Origin: Silvimonas sp. JCM 19000
GTDB lineage: Bacteria; Pseudomonadota; Gammaproteobacteria; Burkholderiales; Chitinibacteraceae
Direction of reading: 5' to 3'
Length of the DNA: 14,379 nucleotides
Assembly: GCA_001313065.1 (NCBI GenBank)
Contig: BBFD01000082.1
Span: forward strand, 1-14,379
The first letter of the stretch is position 1; the number at the start of each line of letters is the position of its first letter. Positions 4,457 through 14,135 of the stretch are shown in pieces. The position numbers and the translations under genes were made by a program. The notes under the pieces were generated by a model. That model had not been told where the DNA came from and searched no databases. It saw only the letters and a program-made list of their open reading frames with translations.

Positions 4457-5614
4457 TTGTCACGCGTCGATCTAAACCGCGATACCCCCTCGCTCAGTAG
4501 CGAACAACGCCAGGCCATTGCCTCGCGTTCCAGCTGGGTGAGCGTGTGGGTGAATATCTGTTTGACCATAGGCCAGCTGGTCACCGGCGTGCTGGCGCAT
4601 TCGCAAGGTTTGATCGCGGACGGTCTGCATTCCTTGTCGGATCTGCTTTCGGATTTTGTGGTGCTGTTTGCCAACAAACACAGCCACAAAGCCGCCGACG
4701 CCGACCATCAATATGGCCACGCCCGCTTTGAAAACGCCGCATCGCTGGCGCTGGGCGTGTTGTTGCTGAGCGTGGCTGGTGTGATGTTGTTCCGCGCGGT
4801 GGAACGTATTCAGGACCCCAGCCATATCCCGCAAGTACATGCCGTCGCCCTCTGGGTGGCGGTGGCGGCCATCGTCGCCAAAGAGGGCCTGTTCCGTTAC
4901 ATGATGCGCGAGGCCAAACGCGTCAATTCCAGCATGCTGATGGCCAATGCATGGCACGCCCGCTCGGACGCGGCGTCTTCATTGGTGGTGGCGCTGGGTG
5001 TGATCGGCAATCTGCTTGGTTTTCCGGTGCTCGATCCGCTGGCGGCGATCATTGTTGGCGTGCTGGTGGGGCGCATGGGCTGGACCTTTGGTTGGGATGC
5101 CCTCAACGATCTGATGGACCGCGCGCTGCCCCCGCCGCAGGTCGATGCGATACGCAAAGTGCTGGAAAACACGCCGGGCGTGCTCAATGCGCATGATCTG
5201 CGCACGCGCAAGATGGGCGATTCGGCGCTGGTGGATGTACATCTGGAAGTCGACGCCCACATCAGTGTCAGCGAGGGCCATCACGTGGCGGTGTTGGCGC
5301 GGCGCGCAGTGCTCGCGCAGTTTGATGTGCTGGATGTGCAGGTGCATATCGACCCGCGCGAAATGGACTCGCCGGCCGATGTGCCATTGCCCACCCGCCG
5401 CGATGTGGTGGCGGCGCTCAGTGGTTTGCTGGGGGACGTGGAGCAGGGTGGCTGGCAAGTGGTGCTGCATTACATCAACGGCACGCTGGAACTGGAATTG
5501 CGCCTGGCTGCGGGCCTGCAGATTCCGGCCACGGCCAGCATCGAGCAGCAGTTATCCGGTGCTTTGCGTTGTCCGGTCAAGCTGACGCTGTGGCAAGCGG
5601 CTGCGCTTATTTGA
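4457..5614 (+). CDS. cation diffusion facilitator, probable Zn2+ or similar divalent-metal exporter
   Basis: An intact 385-aa protein of the CDF family, which exports divalent metal ions from the cytoplasm against protons. The membrane part has the HxxxD pair in helix 2 (H58, D62 in GLHSLSDLLSD), the HQYGHARFE loop (84-92) and the HxxxD pair in helix 5 (H167, D171 in WHARSD). HxxxD/HxxxD is the site common in Zn2+ carriers; the metal itself is inferred. From about 220 on comes the soluble cytoplasmic dimerisation domain (VHLEVDAHISVSEGH, VQVHIDP), followed by an extra tail of about 80 residues. TTG 4457 starts 1 nt after the ATPase stop, so translation is probably coupled. Its end overlaps the convergent response-regulator gene by 8 nt. 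One of the few genes here with no indel. Confidence 0.92.
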   Translation: MSRVDLNRDTPSLSSEQRQAIASRSSWVSVWVNICLTIGQLVTGVLAHSQGLIADGLHSLSDLLSDFVVLFANKHSHKAADADHQYGHARFENAASLALGVLLLSVAGVMLFRAVERIQDPSHIPQVHAVALWVAVAAIVAKEGLFRYMMREAKRVNSSMLMANAWHARSDAASSLVVALGVIGNLLGFPVLDPLAAIIVGVLVGRMGWTFGWDALNDLMDRALPPPQVDAIRKVLENTPGVLNAHDLRTRKMGDSALVDVHLEVDAHISVSEGHHVAVLARRAVLAQFDVLDVQVHIDPREMDSPADVPLPTRRDVVAALSGLLGDVEQGGWQVVLHYINGTLELELRLAAGLQIPATASIEQQLSGALRCPVKLTLWQAAALI

Positions 5615-6260
5615 CGATGCCGACGCGGATCGCATAACGGATCAGGTCGGCATTAGAGCCAAAGCCCATTTTTTTTGCAGAATGCCGCTGCGATAACTGC
5701 TGACCGTCTTGGCCGAAAGATTAAGTTCTTTGGCAATCTGCATCGGATCTTGCCCGATAGCAATGCGATAAAAAAAATCTGGAATTCACGCGCGGACAGC
5801 GTTTCGTGCATAGGTCGGTCGCTGGATAAGGTCACCTGGCTCACCAACTGGTTGAGCGTGGCATCGCTCAGATAATGGTTACCCGAAGCCACGCGGCGGA
5901 TGGCGCCGGTTAATGCGGCTGGCGGATCTGACTTGCTGATAAAACCTTTGGCGCCGGCCCGTAGCATGCTGATGGCGTAAAGGCTTTCCGGGTATTCGCT
6001 AAAGATCAGCACGGCGGGGGCCGGTTCGATCTGGCGGATGGCGTGCAGGGTATCCAGTCCGTTTTTTTGCCCGGCATGGCAATGTCCAGCAAGATCACGT
6101 CATATTGATGCTTGCGCAGCAAAGAAATCACTTCGTCGCCACTGGCAGCCTCACCGGTGACCTTAAGGTCGGGCTCGGTGTGGATAGAGTCGGCAACGCC
6201 CAGGCGCACGATAGGATGACTATCGGCAACCAGGATGCGAACGTGATCTGGAGCGGTCAT
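5607..6260 (-). CDS. NarL/LuxR-type response regulator, three frameshifts
   Basis: A two-component DNA-binding regulator. Receiver: acidic D13 (ILVADSHP), phospho-acceptor D59 (LLDIAMPG), S87 (LIFSEYPE) and K109 (GFISKSD). Linker, then a LuxR-type helix-turn-helix with LSAREFQIF, IAKELNLSAKTVSSYRS and the end NADLIRYAIRVGIVK. Corrected length is 215 aa, standard for the class. The breaks are T7 at 6062-6068 (expected 5), A8 at 5770-5777 (expected 6) and T8 at 5669-5676 (expected 6), each two bases too long. Start ATG 6260 follows AGGGAAG. No histidine kinase is encoded next to it, so its signal and targets are unknown. Confidence 0.9.
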
Positions 6261-6333
6261 GACTTCCCTGTACTTAGTCCAACCCGGCCGGATGGGCAGG
6301 CCAGGCGACGGCGCTTGTTGCTAAACAATAGAA

Positions 6334-6378
6334 AACCGCCAGGGGCCGTGCCAGTTAGGGCACTCGCGCCTGGCGGTT
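6334..6378 (-). terminator. intrinsic terminator behind the DUF1328 gene
   Basis: A perfect 10-bp stem, AACCGCCAGG at 6334-6343 pairing with CCTGGCGGTT at 6369-6378, with a small inner GTGCC/GGCAC stem. In the minus direction it ends in GGTTTTCTATTG, a short U-tract, and lies 17 nt past the stop at 6396. It separates the DUF1328 gene from the response regulator. Confidence 0.75.
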
Positions 6379-6395
6379 ATCTCACTGCGACCTCG

Positions 6396-6560
6396 TTACC
6401 ACCCTCGCATAAAGCCCAGCACAACGCTGACGAGGAAAATAACCAGGAACAAGAAGAACAGAATACGAGCAATATCTGCGGCGCCTGCTGCAATTCCACC
6501 GAAGCCGAATACGGCAGCAATAATGGCGATAATAAAGAATACGACGGCATAGTGAAGCAT
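6396..6560 (-). CDS. DUF1328 / YtjA-like small membrane protein
   Basis: A 54-aa protein starting [20 protein letters not shown], then [20 protein letters not shown] and a second helix ending in VLGFMRGW. The order (aromatic start, helix, FGFGGIA-A turn with ADIA, second helix, short basic end) is typical of DUF1328 (PF07043), two-helix inner-membrane proteins of unknown function common in proteobacteria. Two ATGs are possible: AGGAGG at 6569-6574 is 8 nt from ATG 6560 but only 2 nt from ATG 6566, so 6560 is chosen. It appears to be transcribed alone, with a terminator behind it and another upstream. Confidence 0.9.
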
Positions 6561-6568
6561 GATCATTT

Positions 6569-6574
6569 CCTCCT
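6569..6574 (-). promoter_or_regulatory. ribosome binding site of the DUF1328 gene
   Basis: A perfect AGGAGG on the minus strand, 8 nt before ATG 6560. It decides between two in-frame ATGs six bases apart. Confidence 0.8.
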
Positions 6575-6769
6575 GGTACTGGATTAAGGTTGTCCAATAT
6601 TGTTTCCGGACTCCACGCTTTGCATTCTAAACATTAGCCGTTAAAAAACCCATTGATTCAGGGCTGATTAAGCGGTCGGCTGCGTCCTACAGTTTTCGTC
6701 ATCTTTACGGGACATAAAGCGGATTTGTCCGACAAAAACATCAATCAATAATATTGAAGAAAATAATAC

Positions 6770-6796
6770 AAAAAAGGCGGGTCTAATCCCGCCTTT
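6770..6796 (-). terminator. intrinsic terminator behind galU
   Basis: A 9-bp stem, AAAGGCGGG (6773-6781) pairing with CCCGCCTTT (6788-6796), with a 6-nt loop. On the minus strand it runs into a six-U tract (6775-6770), a strong intrinsic terminator 8 nt past the galU stop. The plus-strand reading has only three U after the stem and is weaker. Confidence 0.88.
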
Positions 6797-6803
6797 GCAT
6801 ATG

Positions 6804-7743
6804 CTAGATAATCGGCGTGCCGTCCGCGCCCGGGTCATCCACTTTGACTCGATGTGGCGTGTACGGCAGGTTTACTCCCAGATAGCGCGCGAAGGCCGCG
6901 CCCAGATCGGGATGGCGCAGACCGTAGTCCACAGTGGCGCACAGATAGCCCAGTTTGCTGCCGCAGTCGTAGCGTTCACCTTCAAAGGCATAAGCACGGA
7001 TGGGTTTGCCCTGGCTGCGCAAGGTTTCGATGGCATCGGTCAGCTGGATTTCATCGCCTTTGCCCGGCGCAGTCTGCGCCAATACCTCAAATATATCCGG
7101 CGTAAATACGTATCGGCCTACAACGCCAAAATTGGAAGGCGCATCAGCTGGATCAGGTTTTTTTCAACAATGCCATCCAGACTATATAAACGTGGGCCTA
7201 ATTCTGAACCCGAAATGATGCCGTATTGTTTGGTATCTTCTGCCGGTACGGATTGCATGCCAATTACGCTGCAGGAATATTCCTCATAGACATCCAGTAA
7301 TTGGCGGATAGCCGGTGTTTCAGCATCGATTAAATCATCGGCCAGAATAACCACAAATGGCTCATTGCCCACCAGCGGCTGCGCACATAACACCGCATGG
7401 CCCAGGCCGCGTTGTTCCACCTGGCGGGTATAGGTAAAGCTCAGGTTGTCCGGAATGACAGACTGGATTTGTTTGAGCAATTCATCTTTGCCATGCGCGG
7501 CCAGCTCGGCTTCCAGCTCATACGCTTTATCAAAGTGGTCTTCGATATTGCGTTTACCGCGCCCGGTCACAAAAAATCATTTGCGTAATGCCCGCGGCGG
7601 CGGCTTCTTCTACCGCGTACTGGATCAGCGGTTTATCGACGATGGGCAGCATTTCTTTGGGCGATGCTTTGGTCATCGGCAAAAAACCGTGTGCCAAAAC
7701 CGGCCACCGGAAACACTGCTTTGCGTACGGGCTGCGCAGGCAT
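6804..7743 (-). CDS. galU: UTP--glucose-1-phosphate uridylyltransferase, three frameshifts
   Basis: GalU makes UDP-glucose from UTP and glucose-1-phosphate in the cytoplasm, feeding cell-envelope sugars, trehalose and galactose use. Seen: the nucleotide-binding start [20 protein letters not shown] with [14 protein letters not shown] after it, [15 protein letters not shown], the substrate-site region [32 protein letters not shown] and the glycine-rich [12 protein letters not shown]. Three T/A runs break it: A6 at 7681-7686 and A6 at 7571-7576 (each expected 5), and T7 at 7158-7164 (expected 5). Corrected length is 311 aa, near the usual 290-300. ATG 7743 follows GGAGGAG at good spacing. It sits 32 nt after the DUF4142 gene and may share its transcript. 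glgX, another user of the glucose-1-phosphate pool, lies divergently close by. Confidence 0.93.
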
Positions 7744-7775
7744 GATCAAACTCCTCCGTGCTGATAGATGGGTTG

Positions 7776-8332
7776 TTATTCGCTGCGCGAGTTGGCCAGC
7801 AGTTTGCGCGCCATGGATAACTGGTCATCCAGTATCGGCATCGAGCTTTGTGCAATGGCTTTGATATCGGCATCTTTGCCGTGCTCGGTTTCATCCAGAT
7901 ACAGCGTTTGCGCATCGAGCTTTTTTCTTGGCAACGCCAGGCTTAGATAATCGTGCTCAAACATCGGGCTCTTTTGCGTCTTTAGATGTTTGGCCAGCGT
8001 CAATGCCTCCGCATCCGGTTCGCTGGGCAGCACAATGCCCTTGTTTTTTTGGCCAGCTTGTCCAGCGCCTGCAAATGCGCTTGCTGCAGCGTAATGATCT
8101 GCTGCGCAAAGGCTTTGACTTCAGGAATATTGGCCTGGGTTTGCGCGATCTGTGCCAGCTGGATATCGGCGTTGGCGTAGCGTGCGGCCAGCTCCATAAA
8201 TTTGATATCCGGGGCGGCCACGGACGGATTGGCGGCCTGAGTGGCGGAGGCGGGGTCGGCGGTATGTGCGATCTCCACCGCGCCCAGGCCAATGACGGCG
8301 GCGAGCACAGCGGCTTCGAGTGCAAGTTTCAT
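7776..8332 (-). CDS. DUF4142 family exported protein, one frameshift
   Basis: A predicted secreted helical protein. It has a signal peptide (MKLALEAAVLAAVIGLGAVE, likely cut near HTA-DPA), then FMELAARYANADIQLAQIA, VKAFAQQIITLQQAH, a conserved-looking FEHDYLSLAL and a closing helix SMPILDDQLSMARKLLA. This fits DUF4142 (PF13628), a ferritin-like helical-bundle family in the periplasm whose function is not established. T7 at 8044-8050 (expected 5, two extra) is the only break; corrected length 184 aa. AGGAG at 8341-8345 favours ATG 8332 (8-nt spacing) over ATG 8338 (2 nt). The next gene downstream on its strand is galU. Confidence 0.82.
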
Positions 8333-8340
8333 GGCCATCA

Positions 8341-8345
8341 CTCCT
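8341..8345 (-). promoter_or_regulatory. ribosome binding site of the DUF4142 gene
   Basis: AGGAG on the minus strand, 8 nt before ATG 8332 and 2 nt before ATG 8338. It follows an A7 run (plus T7 at 8345-8351), so the length of the upstream leader is not reliable. The rest of 8346-8572, between the divergent DUF4142 and glgX genes, must hold both promoters, but I find no confident -35/-10 pair. Confidence 0.65.
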
Positions 8346-8572
8346 TTTTTTAATGATGGAACCATGCTAGGCGTCAGCCTTCTTTGCCGCCGTCAAACAG
8401 CCGCGCAAGCTGGCGTAGTCACAAACAGACGATCCGTGTCGGGCCGCCGACTACAGCCTGGGTGCCAAGTAGGCGCATTCCTATAGTCGTTTCCTCTTGC
8501 GCACAATTGTTGCAATGCGGGGCTTGCCGCACAGTTGCGCTCAATCTCATAACCACCCCCGCAGGCTCAACA

Positions 8573-10757
8573 ATGGTGACCTCAAGCACCCGCATGACCG
8601 AAGGCAATCCCGGCCCTCGTGGCGCCACCTGATGGCAAAGGCGTCAACTTTGCGCTGTTCTCGGCCCACGCCACCAAGGTCGAACTCTGCATATTCGATG
8701 AAACCGGCAGCAAGGAAATCGAGCGCATTGAACTGCCCGAATTTACCGATGAAGTCTGGCACGGTTATCTACCCGACGTAGGCCCGGGCCTGGTTTACGG
8801 TTATCGCGTATATGGCCCGTACGACCCGGAAAACGGCCACCGCTTTAACCACAATAAATTGCTGCTCGACCCGTACGCGCGCCGCCATATCGGCGAACTG
8901 AAATGGCGCCCGAAGTATTCGGCTATACCCTGGGCCACGACGATGCCGATCTGAGCTTTGACGAACGCGATAGCGCGCCGTTTGTGCCTAAATGCGTGGT
9001 GGTCGACTCGCAATTTGAATGGACGCATGAAAGCGCCGTACGTGTGCCATGGGAACACACCGTGCTCTATGAATTGCACGTGCATGGCTTTACCAAAATG
9101 AACGAGAAAGTGCCGGAGAAACTGCGCGGTTCTTTTGCGGCCTTGACCCAGCCCGATGTCATCAAATACATCAAGGATCTGGGCGTCACCAGCGTTGAAT
9201 TGCTGCCGATCCATTCCTTTGTGAATGACAGTTATTTGCTGGACCGTGGCCTGACCAATTACTGGGGCTATAACACCCTGGGCTTCTTTGCCGCCGATCC
9301 GCGTTATTTTTTCCAGCGATTCGATCAGCGAATTCAAAGAGATGGTCAAGCAGTTTCACAAGGCCGGTCTCGAAGTGATTATGGATGTGGTGTACAACCA
9401 CACTGCCGAAGGCAATGAGCTCGGCCCGACGCTGAGTTTTAAAGGCATTGATAACGCCAGCTATTACCGCTTGATTCCGGATCAACGTCGCTATTACATC
9501 AACGATACCGGCACCGGCAATACCGTTAATTTGAGCCATCCGCGTGTGGTGCAAATGGTGACGGACAGCCTGCGGTATTGGGCCACCGAAATGGGTGTGG
9601 ATGGCTTTCGCTTTGACCTTGCCACCATCCTTGGTCGCGAAGAATACGGCTTTGACGAGAGCTGCGGCTTTTTGCAGAGCTGTCGCCAGGATCCCATCCT
9701 GTCCAGCGTCAAACTGATTGCCGAGCCGTGGGATTGCGGTCCTGGCGGCTATCAGGTGGGCGGCTTTGCGCCGGGTTGGGCCGAATGGAATGACCGCTTT
9801 CGCGATACCGTGCGCAGCTTCTGGAAAGGTGACGAAGGCAAATCGCCGGAGCTGGCAACGCGCCTGACCGCCTCGGGCGATCTGTTTAATCAACGTGGCC
9901 GCCGCCCGTGGGCCAGTGTCAACTTCATTACCGCGCACGACGGTTTTACCTTGAACGATCTGGTTTCGTATAACGACAAGCACAACGAAGCCAATGGTGA
10001 AAACAATCAGGACGGCAGTTCCAATAATCATTCGTGGAATTGTGGTGCCGAAGGCGACACCGATGACGCCAACATCATCACGCTGCGGGAAAGACAAAAG
10101 CGCAATTTATTGGCAACGCTGCTGCTTAGCCAGGGCACCCCCATGCTGTTGGCCGGCGATGAATTCGGCAATTCGCAAGGGGGGAATAACAATGCCTATT
10201 GCCAGGATAACGAAATCAGCTGGCTGAATTGGGCCGGCATTGATGACAAGGGCGCGGCCTTGCAACGCTTTGTTAAAAAAGCTGATTCTGCTGCGCCAGT
10301 CGTTTCCGGTATTGCGCCGTGGTCGCTTTTTTGACTGCGGAATGGAATGACGAGCTCAAGACCAAAGATGTGACGTGGTTGTCGCCCGCGGGTGAAGAAT
10401 TGACTGGCGAACAGTGGGGCGAAGGCAATATGCGTTGCTTTGGCATGCTGATCGATGGCCGCGCCGCCGTCAGCGCCATCATGAAGCCAGCATCCGATAC
10501 CACCTTGTTGCTGGTGTTCAATGCCTGGCACGATATGGTCGAGTTCAAATTGCCTGATTTTGAATCGGACAAACAATGGACTTGCCTGATTGATACCAAT
10601 AATCCGGAGCCGGAATCTTTGCCGACTTTTAATGGTGGCGATCAATTCCAGGTGACCGGCCGCTCGTTTGTGTTGTTCCGTCGCGAGGCGCAGGGCGATA
10701 CCGAAAGCTTCTCGCAGTCGGTGGAACAAAAAACTACTGGGCAAGGCATCGGCCTGA
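8573..10757 (+). CDS. glgX: glycogen debranching enzyme (isoamylase-type GH13), several frameshifts
   Basis: GlgX cleaves alpha-1,6 branches of phosphorylase-trimmed glycogen in the cytoplasm. The N-terminal CBM48-like part ([17 protein letters not shown]) is followed by a GH13 barrel: DVVYNH (9384-9401), DGFRFD with the nucleophile codon at 9615-9617, AEPWD with the acid/base Glu codon at 9723-9725, and TAHDG with the Asp at 9939-9941. The debrancher stretch [15 protein letters not shown] follows. Breaks: GGG read as G near 8631, GGG as GG near 8905, and A/T runs one too long at 9307-9312, 10275-10280, 10327-10332 and 10728-10733. Corrected, it stops at TGA 10755-10757, giving 727 aa (720 from ATG 8594). 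Without the last correction the frame runs on into the LOV gene. Start ATG 8573 has only a weak Shine-Dalgarno. Confidence 0.92.
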
Positions 10758-10759
10758 TG
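10755..10759 (+). promoter_or_regulatory. TGATG stop/start overlap joining glgX and the LOV gene
   Basis: If the A6 run at 10728-10733 is truly five A, glgX ends [11 protein letters not shown] and its TGA (10755-10757) shares one base with ATG 10757-10759. Such an overlap usually means translational coupling. As printed, glgX and LOV are instead one frame and this ATG is an internal Met. Confidence 0.6.
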
Positions 10760-11464
10760 TTGAACAAGCCCACCGCTCCCCGCCGCCCCGCGCCGCATGC
10801 CGACGCTTTGCGCCAGTTTGCGGCGTACGGGGAAGGCGACGTGTTTTATGCCGTGTTGCAAAAGACGCGTATTCCGATGGTGATGGCCGACGCGCGCAGC
10901 GAAGGCCATCCCCTGGTGTTTGCCAATGCCGCTTTTGCGCATCTGACCGGCTACAGCGTGGACGAGGTGGTGGGCCGCAACTGCAATTTTCTGCAAGGGC
11001 CGGGCACGCGCGCCGACATCGTCTTGCAGTTGACGGACGCGCTGGACTGGCCGCGCGAAATTGCAGTCGAAATACTCAATTACCGCAAAGACGGCACGCC
11101 GTTCTGGAATGCCTTGTTTATCTCGCCGGTATTTGATCAGGACGGAGAGCTGCGCTATTTCCTTGGCTCGCAGCGCGACGTCACGCAACGGCACGCCGCC
11201 GCCGAAGCGCTGCGCCATGCCCGTGACGCCGGCGGCGATGGCCATATCAGCAGCGAAGCCGCGCATGACTTCAATAATCTGTTGCAGGTAATGCTGGGCC
11301 AGCTTAGCTTGCTGACCCGCTCGCTGCAGAAGACGCCGGTGCCGGGCAGCAAGGCGCAGCATCATCTGCAAGCGGTGCGGATGGCGGTGGAGCAGGCGGG
11401 TGCCTTGTCGGGCCAGTTGCAGGCGGCGGCGCAACACGCGCGCCGCCAGAGCAGACCGGCCTGA
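10757..11464 (+). CDS. LOV blue-light sensor with histidine-kinase dimerisation segment, no ATPase domain
   Basis: A 235-aa cytoplasmic protein with a PAS/LOV domain at about residues 33-145. It has the full photoactive motif GRNCNFLQG (residues 73-81), whose C76 would form the light-driven flavin adduct, plus the flavin-contacting N108 (ILNYRKDG), N118 (PFWNALF) and Q139 (FLGSQRDV). A helical linker leads to EAAHDFNNLLQVMLGQLSLL, a HisKA-like (DHp) helix with the candidate phospho-histidine H170, and a second helix to the end. The ATP-binding HATPase_c domain that should follow is absent. It cannot be hidden by a frameshift, because the convergent dgoT ends 2 nt past the stop. The protein may be a light-gated dimer or phosphatase-like partner; this is inference. 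Confidence 0.85.
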   Translation: MLNKPTAPRRPAPHADALRQFAAYGEGDVFYAVLQKTRIPMVMADARSEGHPLVFANAAFAHLTGYSVDEVVGRNCNFLQGPGTRADIVLQLTDALDWPREIAVEILNYRKDGTPFWNALFISPVFDQDGELRYFLGSQRDVTQRHAAAEALRHARDAGGDGHISSEAAHDFNNLLQVMLGQLSLLTRSLQKTPVPGSKAQHHLQAVRMAVEQAGALSGQLQAAAQHARRQSRPA

Positions 11465-11466
11465 AC

Positions 11467-12787
11467 TTATTCGCCGACCCGGCGTACGTCTCCCACCAGA
11501 AAGATGTACGACAGGGCGCCGACCAGTGCCACCAGCGAGATGTAGATCAGTGCTGGAGCAAAGCCGTAATCCTGAGCGATATAGCCAATCACCAGCGGCA
11601 CCGTAATGCCGCCGAGGCCGCCGGCAAAATTGAACACGCCCCCGGTCAGGCCGATCAGCCGCACCGGTGCCAGCGATGAAACCAGCGACCACGTGATCGA
11701 GCAAAGCCATTACCGAAGAAGGCGATGGCCATCAACGTCATGATCCAGAGCGGGTCATCGGTGTAATTGGCGCCGATGATGCACGTCGACAGCAACAAGC
11801 CGCAAATGATCGGCGTCTTGCGCGCAAAACCGATGGACTTGCCCGCGCGCACCATACGGTCCGCGGCATAGCCCGACAGCAGCACCCCGACAAAGGCGGC
11901 AAGGAAAGGCACCGTGTCATAAAGCCCGCGGTCAATGCGCTGACATGTTTTTCCTGAGTCAGATAGCTGGGGAACCAGGTCAGAAAGAACCACAGCGTGG
12001 ACGCGATGGCAAACTGGCCGACATAAACGCCGATCAACTTGCGGTTAAAAAAATCATTTTCCAGTCCGCCGCCGTGACCACGCCGCGCGATTTCTGCGTT
12101 GATGGCGCGTCGCCATCGATCATGCCGCCACCGGCAGCGATATGGTCCAGCTCCGCCTGGTTTATGCCACGGGCTTTACGCGGGGCTGATACACAAAGTG
12201 CCACACCAGCGCCCACAGCATGCCGATGCCGCCGGTAAGGATAAACACCCAGTGCCAGCTCAGTGATTCCTGTACCCAGATCAGCAGCGGCGTCAGAAAC
12301 GCCAACCCGACAAACTGGCCCGAGGTGTAAAAGCCCACCGCCGAAGCGCGTTCCTGCTCCGGAAACCAGCTGGTGACCATGCGGTTATTGGTGGGGAAGG
12401 CGGGCGCTTCAAACAGGCCGGTGAGTGCGCGTAGCCCGATCAGCGAGGCAAGGCCGCCGGCCATGCCCTGAAACAAGGTGGCGATAGACCAGCCCATCAC
12501 GGCAATAAAGTAGGTGAGCCTGGAGCCGACCCGATCCAGAAACCAGCCGCCCGGAATCTGGAAGGCGTATAAGTCCAGGCAAAGGCCGAAAAGATATAGC
12601 CCATCTGCGTGCGGCTGATGCCGAATTCCTTCTGGATATGTGCCGAGGCCACGGCGAGGTTGGCACGGTCCACGTAGCAAATGACCACGGTGACAAAGAT
12701 CATCAGCAGTGTCAGATAGCGACGGCGCGTGGGTTTCTGTGCTGCCACGGCGGCGGGCAGCGGTGTTGCCAGATCAGGGGTTTGCAT
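11467..12787 (-). CDS. dgoT: D-galactonate:proton symporter, MFS family, five indels
   Basis: A 12-helix inner-membrane carrier of the anion:cation symporter MFS family that imports D-galactonate with protons. The sequence follows E. coli DgoT closely as I recall it: [76 protein letters not shown], then [40 protein letters not shown] and the end [10 protein letters not shown]. Indels: one base lost at 12564-12565, C5 read as C4 at 12182-12185 (plus G), T7 at 12047-12053 (expected 5), one base lost near 11916 and one near 11701. Corrected length is 440 aa, against about 430 in E. coli. ATG 12787 follows GGAAAG with 6-nt spacing. It is the last gene of the dgo operon here. Confidence 0.88.
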
Positions 12788-12987
12788 ATACGACTTTCCA
12801 TGAGAGTGCGATTGACAGGGGCGTAACGGCGCCTCGCGAGCGCGTCGCCCATGATTTTTTATGGTGTTGCCAGGGTAAAACGGGGTGTCGGCAACGGCAG
12901 CCCGCGGGCGCGGGGCCGCTGCTAACGGGGTTTCGACGTGCGCCGGACCGCACGCGCAATCAGCGCGCTGTTACGCGCGGCGCGTAA
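12788..12987 (-). other. 200-nt GC-rich spacer between dgoD and dgoT
   Basis: No open frame stands out. On the minus strand it begins right after the dgoD stop with a GTTACGC/GCGTAAC inverted repeat (12970-12988), passes GC-rich hairpin-prone sequence (about 12890-12925), and ends with the dgoT ribosome site at 12794-12799. A second GTTACGC-like copy lies about 12830 (minus CCGTTACGCC). I see no U-tract terminator and no clear promoter. Confidence 0.55.
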
Positions 12988-12988: not shown

Positions 12989-14135
12989 TACCATTCGGCC
13001 ACTGCGCCGTCGGGATAGCGCCATAGCGGATTGCGCCAATCGGGCGCGCAGCGGCTGCGTTCGATCACCAATTCCTCGTTGACGACCACGCCGAGTCCGG
13101 GCCTGGTGGGCGGGCGGAAGTGACCCTCGGCCATGCTGAAGTCCTCCGGGTTAAGCACGTAATCAAGCAGCTCGGCACCTTTGTTGTAATGGATGCCCAT
13201 GCTTTGCTCCTGCAGCACTGCATTCCGCGCGACGAAGTCAGATGCAGGCACGATGCCAGTGCAATCGGCCCCAGCGGGCAATGCGGAGCCAGTGCCACAT
13301 CGTAGGCTTCGGCCATGGCGGCAATCTTGTGGCACTCGGTCAGACCGCCCGCGTGCGAAAGATCGGGCTGCACGATGCCGAGGCCGCCGTCGGCCAGCAC
13401 GCGTTTGAAGTCGAAGCGCGAGAACATGCGTTCACCCGCGGCGATGGGGATATGCGTGGCAGCTTGCAGACGTGGGTAGTACTCGGCTTGTTCAGCCAGT
13501 ACTGGTTCTTCGATAAACAGGGGCCGGTACGGCTCCAGTTGTTTGATCAGCACGCGCGCCATCGGCGCGCTGACGCGCCCATGAAAATCAAGGCCGAACT
13601 CGATGGTGTTGCCAAAGGCGGCGCGGATCTCCGCTACCACCGCCACGGCAGCGTCGACCTTGCGGCTGTTATCAATAATCCCCATTTCTTCGCAGCCGTT
13701 GAGCTTGAAGGTATCAAAGCCCGTCGCCTGCAAGGTCTTGATGCCCGCAATCACGTCCGCGGGGCGGTCGCCGCCCACCCAGCTATAGGCCTTGATACGG
13801 TCACGGACCAGGCCACCCAGCAGCTGGTACACCGGCACCCCCAGCGCCTTGCCTTTGATGTCCCACAATGCTTCGTCGATGCCGGCGATGGCGCTCATCA
13901 GGATGGGGCCGCCGCGATAGAACGCCCCGCGATACATGGTCTGCCACAGGTCGTTGATGCGATGCGGGTCCTGGCCGATCAGGACATCGCCCAATTCGTG
14001 TACCGCCGCTTCGACGGTACGGGCGCGGCCCTCGATAACGGGTTCGCCCCAGCCGGTGATGCCCGCGTCGGTTTCAATCTTGAGAAACATCCAGCGGGGA
14101 GCCAGCCGATAGGTGCTTAAGCGTGTGATTTTCAT
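12988..14135 (-). CDS. dgoD: D-galactonate dehydratase, one frameshift
   Basis: This enolase-superfamily enzyme converts D-galactonate to 2-dehydro-3-deoxy-D-galactonate. The metal ligands and catalytic residues fall at the E. coli positions: D183 and H185 (LDFHGR), E209 (FIEEPV), E235 (AAGERM) and H285 (APHCPLGP). The N-terminal capping domain ([28 protein letters not shown]) is present. A lost base near 13239 ([10 protein letters not shown] expected) breaks the frame. Undoing it gives 382 aa, the E. coli length, ending [14 protein letters not shown]. The ATG overlaps the dgoA stop by 4 nt (ATGA, 14132-14135), a sign of coupled translation. Confidence 0.95.

Follow-up and report, generated by a model that had tools for sequence, protein, structure and literature searches.

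A short LOV protein that ends in a histidine-kinase-type DHp hairpin, encoded between glgX and dgoT in Silvimonas and Amantichitinum ursilacus

In the LOV hybrid histidine kinases described by NCBIfam model NF010076 (PRK13557), a LOV domain is followed by a DHp hairpin with the motif AHDFNN, and then by catalytic and receiver domains. In HisKA proteins, the acidic residue directly after the phospho-acceptor histidine (H+1) is needed for kinase activity, and Thr or Asn at H+4 for phosphatase activity; the DHp domain of EnvZ or NtrB alone suffices for the latter, with the catalytic domain greatly raising the activity (PMC3510030). A photoreceptor built as a kinase can act as a light-sensitive phosphatase, as described for D. 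radiodurans BphP (PMC8292422). In YF1, the LOV helix continues into the first helix of the DHp domain (PMC13322254). We analysed a gene for a much shorter LOV protein, found in a stretch of 14,379 nucleotides from Silvimonas sp. JCM 19000 (contig BBFD01000082.1), called here the window.

The gene lies at 10757..11464 on the forward strand and encodes a protein of 235 aa (P0001), from an ATG start to a TGA stop at 11462-11464. Residues 29-146 (10841..11194) form a LOV domain with the adduct cysteine Cys76 (codon 10982-10984); Pfam PAS_9 matched with E 5.1e-22, NCBIfam LOV-kinase models matched as well, and the best solved relatives of this part are LOV sensors of histidine kinases. After the LOV domain comes a DHp hairpin of about 85 residues (placed at residues 150-228), reached through a linker (residues 143-161, 11183..11239) whose helix is predicted to break at 158-161. 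The first DHp helix spans residues 162-190 (11240..11326) and carries H170 (11264-11266), D171 and N174; the second spans residues 197-232 (11345..11452), and there the protein ends, as the earlier note, made from the window alone, had proposed. NF010076 matched residues 25-233 over its positions 27-235 of 540, at 240 bits, below its whole-protein cut-off of 631 bits. Pfam HisKA scored the tail at 14.7 bits, under the cut-off of 26.9 bits, and gave no reported match at E 0.001 in the A. ursilacus copy described below. A DHp profile built from 73 relatives outside the short group, however, gave the tail 54.8 bits, whereas none of 1000 shuffled tails exceeded 7.3 bits; the match is above chance, and the AHDFNN helix with H170 that the earlier note had recognised is indeed present. 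There was no Pfam match to HATPase_c, and neither Pfam nor NCBIfam revealed a fused effector enzyme. The gene stops 2 nt from the convergent dgoT stop (11467), leaving no room for a hidden catalytic domain, so that this part of the earlier reading holds in the window. Judged by its domain content, the protein could not be a kinase on its own.

The earlier note had proposed a search beside glgX in related genomes, and in Amantichitinum ursilacus (genome G400) the same gene indeed lies between glgX and dgoT. Its product (233 aa, GTG start; L111, 5849-6550, minus strand) is 89% identical to the window protein, and the gene order is that of the window, with intact neighbours: glgX of 738 aa and a convergent dgoT of 444 aa. 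No catalytic domain is hidden at this locus, the one relative locus read at the DNA level, so that the finding which the earlier note had named as refuting its reading, a full kinase in this place, did not turn up in this relative. The view of the window gene as a truncated outlier was rejected because A. ursilacus holds the same short gene at the same place. Two further proteins, P0004 (67%) and P0005 (63%), are also short and end at about the end point of the window protein, both ends being judged from protein sequence (contigs of 40922 and 1232 bases, respectively). The short group so far comprises four sequences that are 63-91% alike, plus the fragment P0006; among the best 120 of 3275 profile-search matches, no close relatives beyond P0003-P0006 were found. 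Another LOV protein, P0008 (240 aa, 44% identity; five member sequences on five contigs, the longest of 34002 bases), stops directly after a canonical, kinase-like AHDFNN DHp, and could be an independent short form or the result of a frame break.

Comparison of the window and A. ursilacus genes (NG86) gave dN 0.0555 and dS 0.982 for the LOV half (dN/dS about 0.06), and dN 0.0665 and dS 0.919 for the DHp half (dN/dS about 0.07). The DHp differences fall 13, 3 and 25 at codon positions 1, 2 and 3 of 78 codons, with six residue changes. By this measure, both halves are under purifying selection. That selection, together with the short form shared by other sequences and the intact frame of the LOV gene beside six neighbours that have 24 frame breaks between them, makes a decaying remnant of a LOV kinase very improbable, even though the catalytic part is absent here and present in all 19 HDFNN relatives read, and even though the neighbours in the window are full of frame breaks. 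Since close relatives carry the same short form, the protein has the look of a functional, pared-down light sensor and not of a defective kinase; the catalytic part would have been lost from a longer ancestor.

The frame breaks are instructive about the window itself. Relative to A. ursilacus, the 24 frame-breaking indels lie within 5294-12881 and at 13239, in a response regulator gene (3), galU (3), a DUF4142 gene (3), glgX (7), dgoT (7) and dgoD (1). This pattern suggests that the window comes from a long-read style assembly that was left uncorrected; gene fusions, splits and truncations seen there therefore need checking against relatives. The dgoT-like MFS transporter gene (11467..12787, minus strand), for example, is broken in the window. 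So is the frame of glgX, for a glycogen debranching enzyme (8540..10756, forward strand; start approximate, taken from the intact A. ursilacus gene). Missed in the earlier note was an open frame, 10319-11464, that joins the glgX tail to the LOV gene without a stop. It is open because of one extra A in a run of six (10728..10733, forward strand), one base more than in the alignment with A. ursilacus, by which glgX reads into the LOV gene. Read in another frame, glgX of the window would have a stop whose letters run into the LOV start (TGATG), an overlap that would be in keeping with an operon. That glgX, LOV and DHp are made as one fusion protein, as the window frame taken at face value would have it, is scarcely credible and was rejected: besides the extra base, glgX in A. 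ursilacus ends a little before the LOV gene opens with a start of its own, P0004 and P0005 each have an initial Met near that point, and at all six readable loci among eight other glgX loci the gene stops 20-60 residues past the conserved GRS motif (distances by eye), without LOV; at the remaining two loci the pattern applied brought out no frame. Three glgX-like genes are present in A. ursilacus (G400:C4:115558-117771, C2:61221-63392 and C7:94733-96595), one of which shares 72% identity with the copy next to the LOV gene.

LOV proteins that end after the DHp hairpin are rare. A survey of 90 related loci yielded 75 with a readable LOV frame, 74 of them with Arg directly after the adduct cysteine (Cys+1) and one with Asp; the 15 loci left out had no LOV frame by a simple pattern (nine from genome searches, some of them maybe in the other orientation, and six from genome contigs). 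All 19 survey loci with HDFNN run at least 247 residues beyond the histidine and contain a G2-box-like motif; the H-motif pattern is blind to HWE-type kinases, and loci without an H motif are no evidence of short forms. Across 399 genomes from the order to which genome G001 belongs, the ten best matches fall within open frames that are 554-812 aa long; a search with an over-strict limit matched 0 of 399 genomes. Within the family of genome G380, two of 43 genomes matched at E 1e-25, A. ursilacus and G423; the G423 match sits in a frame of 1294 aa, so the short gene occurs in A. ursilacus only. The other 19 A. ursilacus matches at E 0.001 or better are all far weaker (5.6e-13 or worse). An exact AHDFNN site occurs six times in that genome, in the LOV-DHp gene and in five proteins with HATPase_c and receiver domains (two of these read from frames cut off at the locus end). 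Among viral contigs, 58 stretches fitted a pattern and none was confirmed; 346 plasmid records matched, all below 60% identity, with one covering at least 80% of the query. A mobile origin of the gene was dropped on these results. No natural LOV-DHp-only protein was named in the titles and abstract openings of the literature searched, which is weak evidence of absence, with subscription papers outside the scope. From the sequences covered, we take the protein to be conserved, rare and lineage-limited.

We aligned 83 proteins picked from the listed matches (alignment A3; plant and algal LOV proteins, fragment P0006 and others omitted, several rows partial). C76, N57, N75, Q80, N108, N118 and Q139 are identical in all 83 rows, which bears out the earlier note on the adduct cysteine. 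Its claim that all flavin contacts are kept went too far: the predicted contacts to the flavin ring are intact in the window protein and those to the phosphate are not. In PpSB1-LOV the FMN phosphate is held by R54 and R70, where the window protein has N77 and T93 instead. Cys+1 is Arg in 78 of the 83 rows; the short sequences have N, N, S and N there instead, and P0038 has S. The second FMN-phosphate Arg is present in 68 rows, among them the three short sequences apart from the window protein. In P0038, a LOV relative, Ser and Gly stand at the two positions, so the Arg pair is not strictly required in LOV relatives. As FMN, FAD and riboflavin are all possible ligands of LOV proteins (PMC5314338), loss of the phosphate-binding Arg residues is compatible with a photoreceptor.

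In the DHp part, H170 and N174 are present in 83 of 83 rows, and position 171 (H+1) is D in 73 and E in 10. Three positions set the short sequences apart. Besides N or S after the LOV cysteine, all four have Glu at H-3, where the other 79 rows have Gly (72), Ser (6) or Val (1), and all four have Gly or Pro at 158-159, which none of the 79 has; these are derived marks common to the group. The changes at H-3 and 158-159 sit where a catalytic domain and a rigid linker would no longer constrain the sequence. An AlphaFold2 single-chain model of P0001 (mean pLDDT 80.9) has the LOV domain at high confidence and helices at 143-157, 162-190 and 197-232, with a pLDDT of only 63-75 in the DHp region. Foldseek alignments of the model with YF1 (4gcz) and SB2F1 extended through both LOV and DHp, covering 199-211 columns. 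The overall superposition was poor (rmsd about 26-28, TM-score by query 0.48-0.53), so the relative placement of LOV and DHp is not common to the model and these kinases. The rigid LOV-DHp helix seems to be broken at 158-161 in the model, which may uncouple the DHp hairpin from light.

The broken helix, the lost phosphate Arg and the Glu at H-3 together agree with a plain short LOV protein, in which the hairpin would be a dimerisation extension and the histidine a relic, with a partner outside two-component systems or a LOV domain that barely works; short LOV proteins do signal via partner proteins and helical extensions (PMC4335406). However, AHDFNN and the following helix are the best-kept part of the tail among the sequences 63-91% alike, and dN/dS is as low for the DHp half as for the LOV half, and we consider this reading unlikely.

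Our working model, placed ahead of this and of the two alternatives set out below, is a phosphatase or phosphate sink for a response regulator, modulated by light. In this model the protein is a natural light sensor of LOV plus DHp hairpin, related to the PRK13557-type kinases, lacking their catalytic and receiver parts and maintained by selection; we hold it tentatively, as somewhat short of an even chance. The protein would dimerise via a DHp four-helix bundle and, because it has no ATP domain, would not autophosphorylate. Blue light on the LOV domain would alter the DHp hairpin, which would strip phosphate from, or store phosphate for, a response regulator loaded by other kinases or by acetyl phosphate. 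In favour of the model, the HisKA-phosphatase residue at H+4 is present (N174), the conserved short form and purifying selection argue for a function, the DHp domains of EnvZ and NtrB and the photoreceptor BphP offer precedents, and the changes at H-3 and 158-159 fit a protein freed from a catalytic domain and a rigid linker. Against a pure phosphatase, all four short sequences retain the H+1 acid, which kinase activity requires and phosphatase activity does not, and this speaks equally for kinase-like or phosphotransfer chemistry. Also to be counted against the model are the broken linker helix, the loss of both FMN-phosphate Arg residues in the window protein and the pLDDT of its DHp region. 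The earlier note had offered the LOV-DHp-only unit as a phosphoreceiver, a phosphatase or a partner of another kinase. The unit itself appears genuine, given the conserved short form, the A. ursilacus locus and purifying selection on the DHp half; with both the H+4 phosphatase residue and the H+1 acid kept, the sequence does not choose among the three roles.

Two of these roles were weighed as alternatives. As a dimerising adaptor, the hairpin would pair with the DHp domain of a full hybrid kinase and set its activity by light, and the five other AHDFNN proteins of A. ursilacus could offer a similar DHp. Yet there is little likeness between the DHp helices, with 28-40% identity in this region for the A. 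ursilacus matches, that genome has no other close LOV protein (next match E 5.6e-13), and mere pairing would not require H170 and N174; an adaptor is thus rather doubtful. In Hpt-like phosphotransfer, H170 would be phosphorylated by a hybrid-kinase receiver and would in turn phosphorylate a regulator, with access governed by light. The histidine and its adjacent acid are kept in all four short sequences, and the receivers of the same five hybrids could donate the phosphate, but no hybrid kinase is linked to the gene. In addition, the phosphatase residue N174 is just as invariant, so conservation does not single out transfer; we regard this role as no likelier than the plain short LOV protein.

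No linked cognate response regulator for the LOV-DHp protein was identified at the locus. About 4.5 kb away lies a gene for a NarL/LuxR-type response regulator (window 5653-6260, frame broken; intact in A. ursilacus, 215 aa, L111 11019-11666), near which no kinase gene was recognised. It is matched at E 1e-40 or better in 15 of the 43 family genomes, against one for the LOV-DHp gene. In G380, where the search did not turn up the LOV-DHp gene, the top match to the regulator (57%) adjoins glgX, so the place of the regulator near glgX is independent of the LOV gene. A role as specific partner is not supported by these distributions, and the regulator is a candidate partner only.

More broadly, the protein could represent a natural class of photoreceptor in which LOV directly controls a stand-alone DHp, giving a blue-light-dependent phosphatase or phosphotransferase for response regulators that needs no ATP domain and in which the rigid coiled coil has given way to a rebuilt linker hinged by Gly/Pro. 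This wider proposal is speculative and less likely than not. If true, it would provide a minimal, naturally selected test of a sensor steering a DHp without a catalytic domain, a case that bears on the switching of histidine kinases between kinase and phosphatase states, and possibly a small light-controlled phosphatase or phosphate-transfer module for optogenetics. The group is tiny, four sequences and one fragment, which limits its significance.

The protein resembles several known systems and differs from each. From the PRK13557 kinases, whose LOV-DHp order it shares, it differs in the absent catalytic and receiver domains, a Cys+1 residue other than Arg, the changed linker and Glu at H-3. 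The phosphotransferases Spo0B and ChpT use DHp-like helices for phosphotransfer without kinase activity, and keep a degenerate ATPase-like domain. In contrast, nothing follows the DHp hairpin in the window protein. Isolated DHp domains of EnvZ and NtrB likewise have no catalytic domain, carry the H-D/E-x-x-T/N motif and suffice for phosphatase activity (PMC3510030); these, however, are laboratory constructs with no light sensor. D. radiodurans BphP is a phytochrome with the catalytic domain present, His at H+1 and Glu at H+4. The engineered YF1 and SB2F1, alignable with the model across LOV and DHp, are full kinases with a continuous LOV-DHp helix (PMC13322254). The short LOV proteins PpSB1-LOV, PpSB2-LOV, RsLOV and DsLOV are likewise small and have no attached effector enzyme (PMC4335406, PMC6798134), but where these have just short helical extensions, the window protein has a whole DHp hairpin with a conserved phospho-acceptor histidine.
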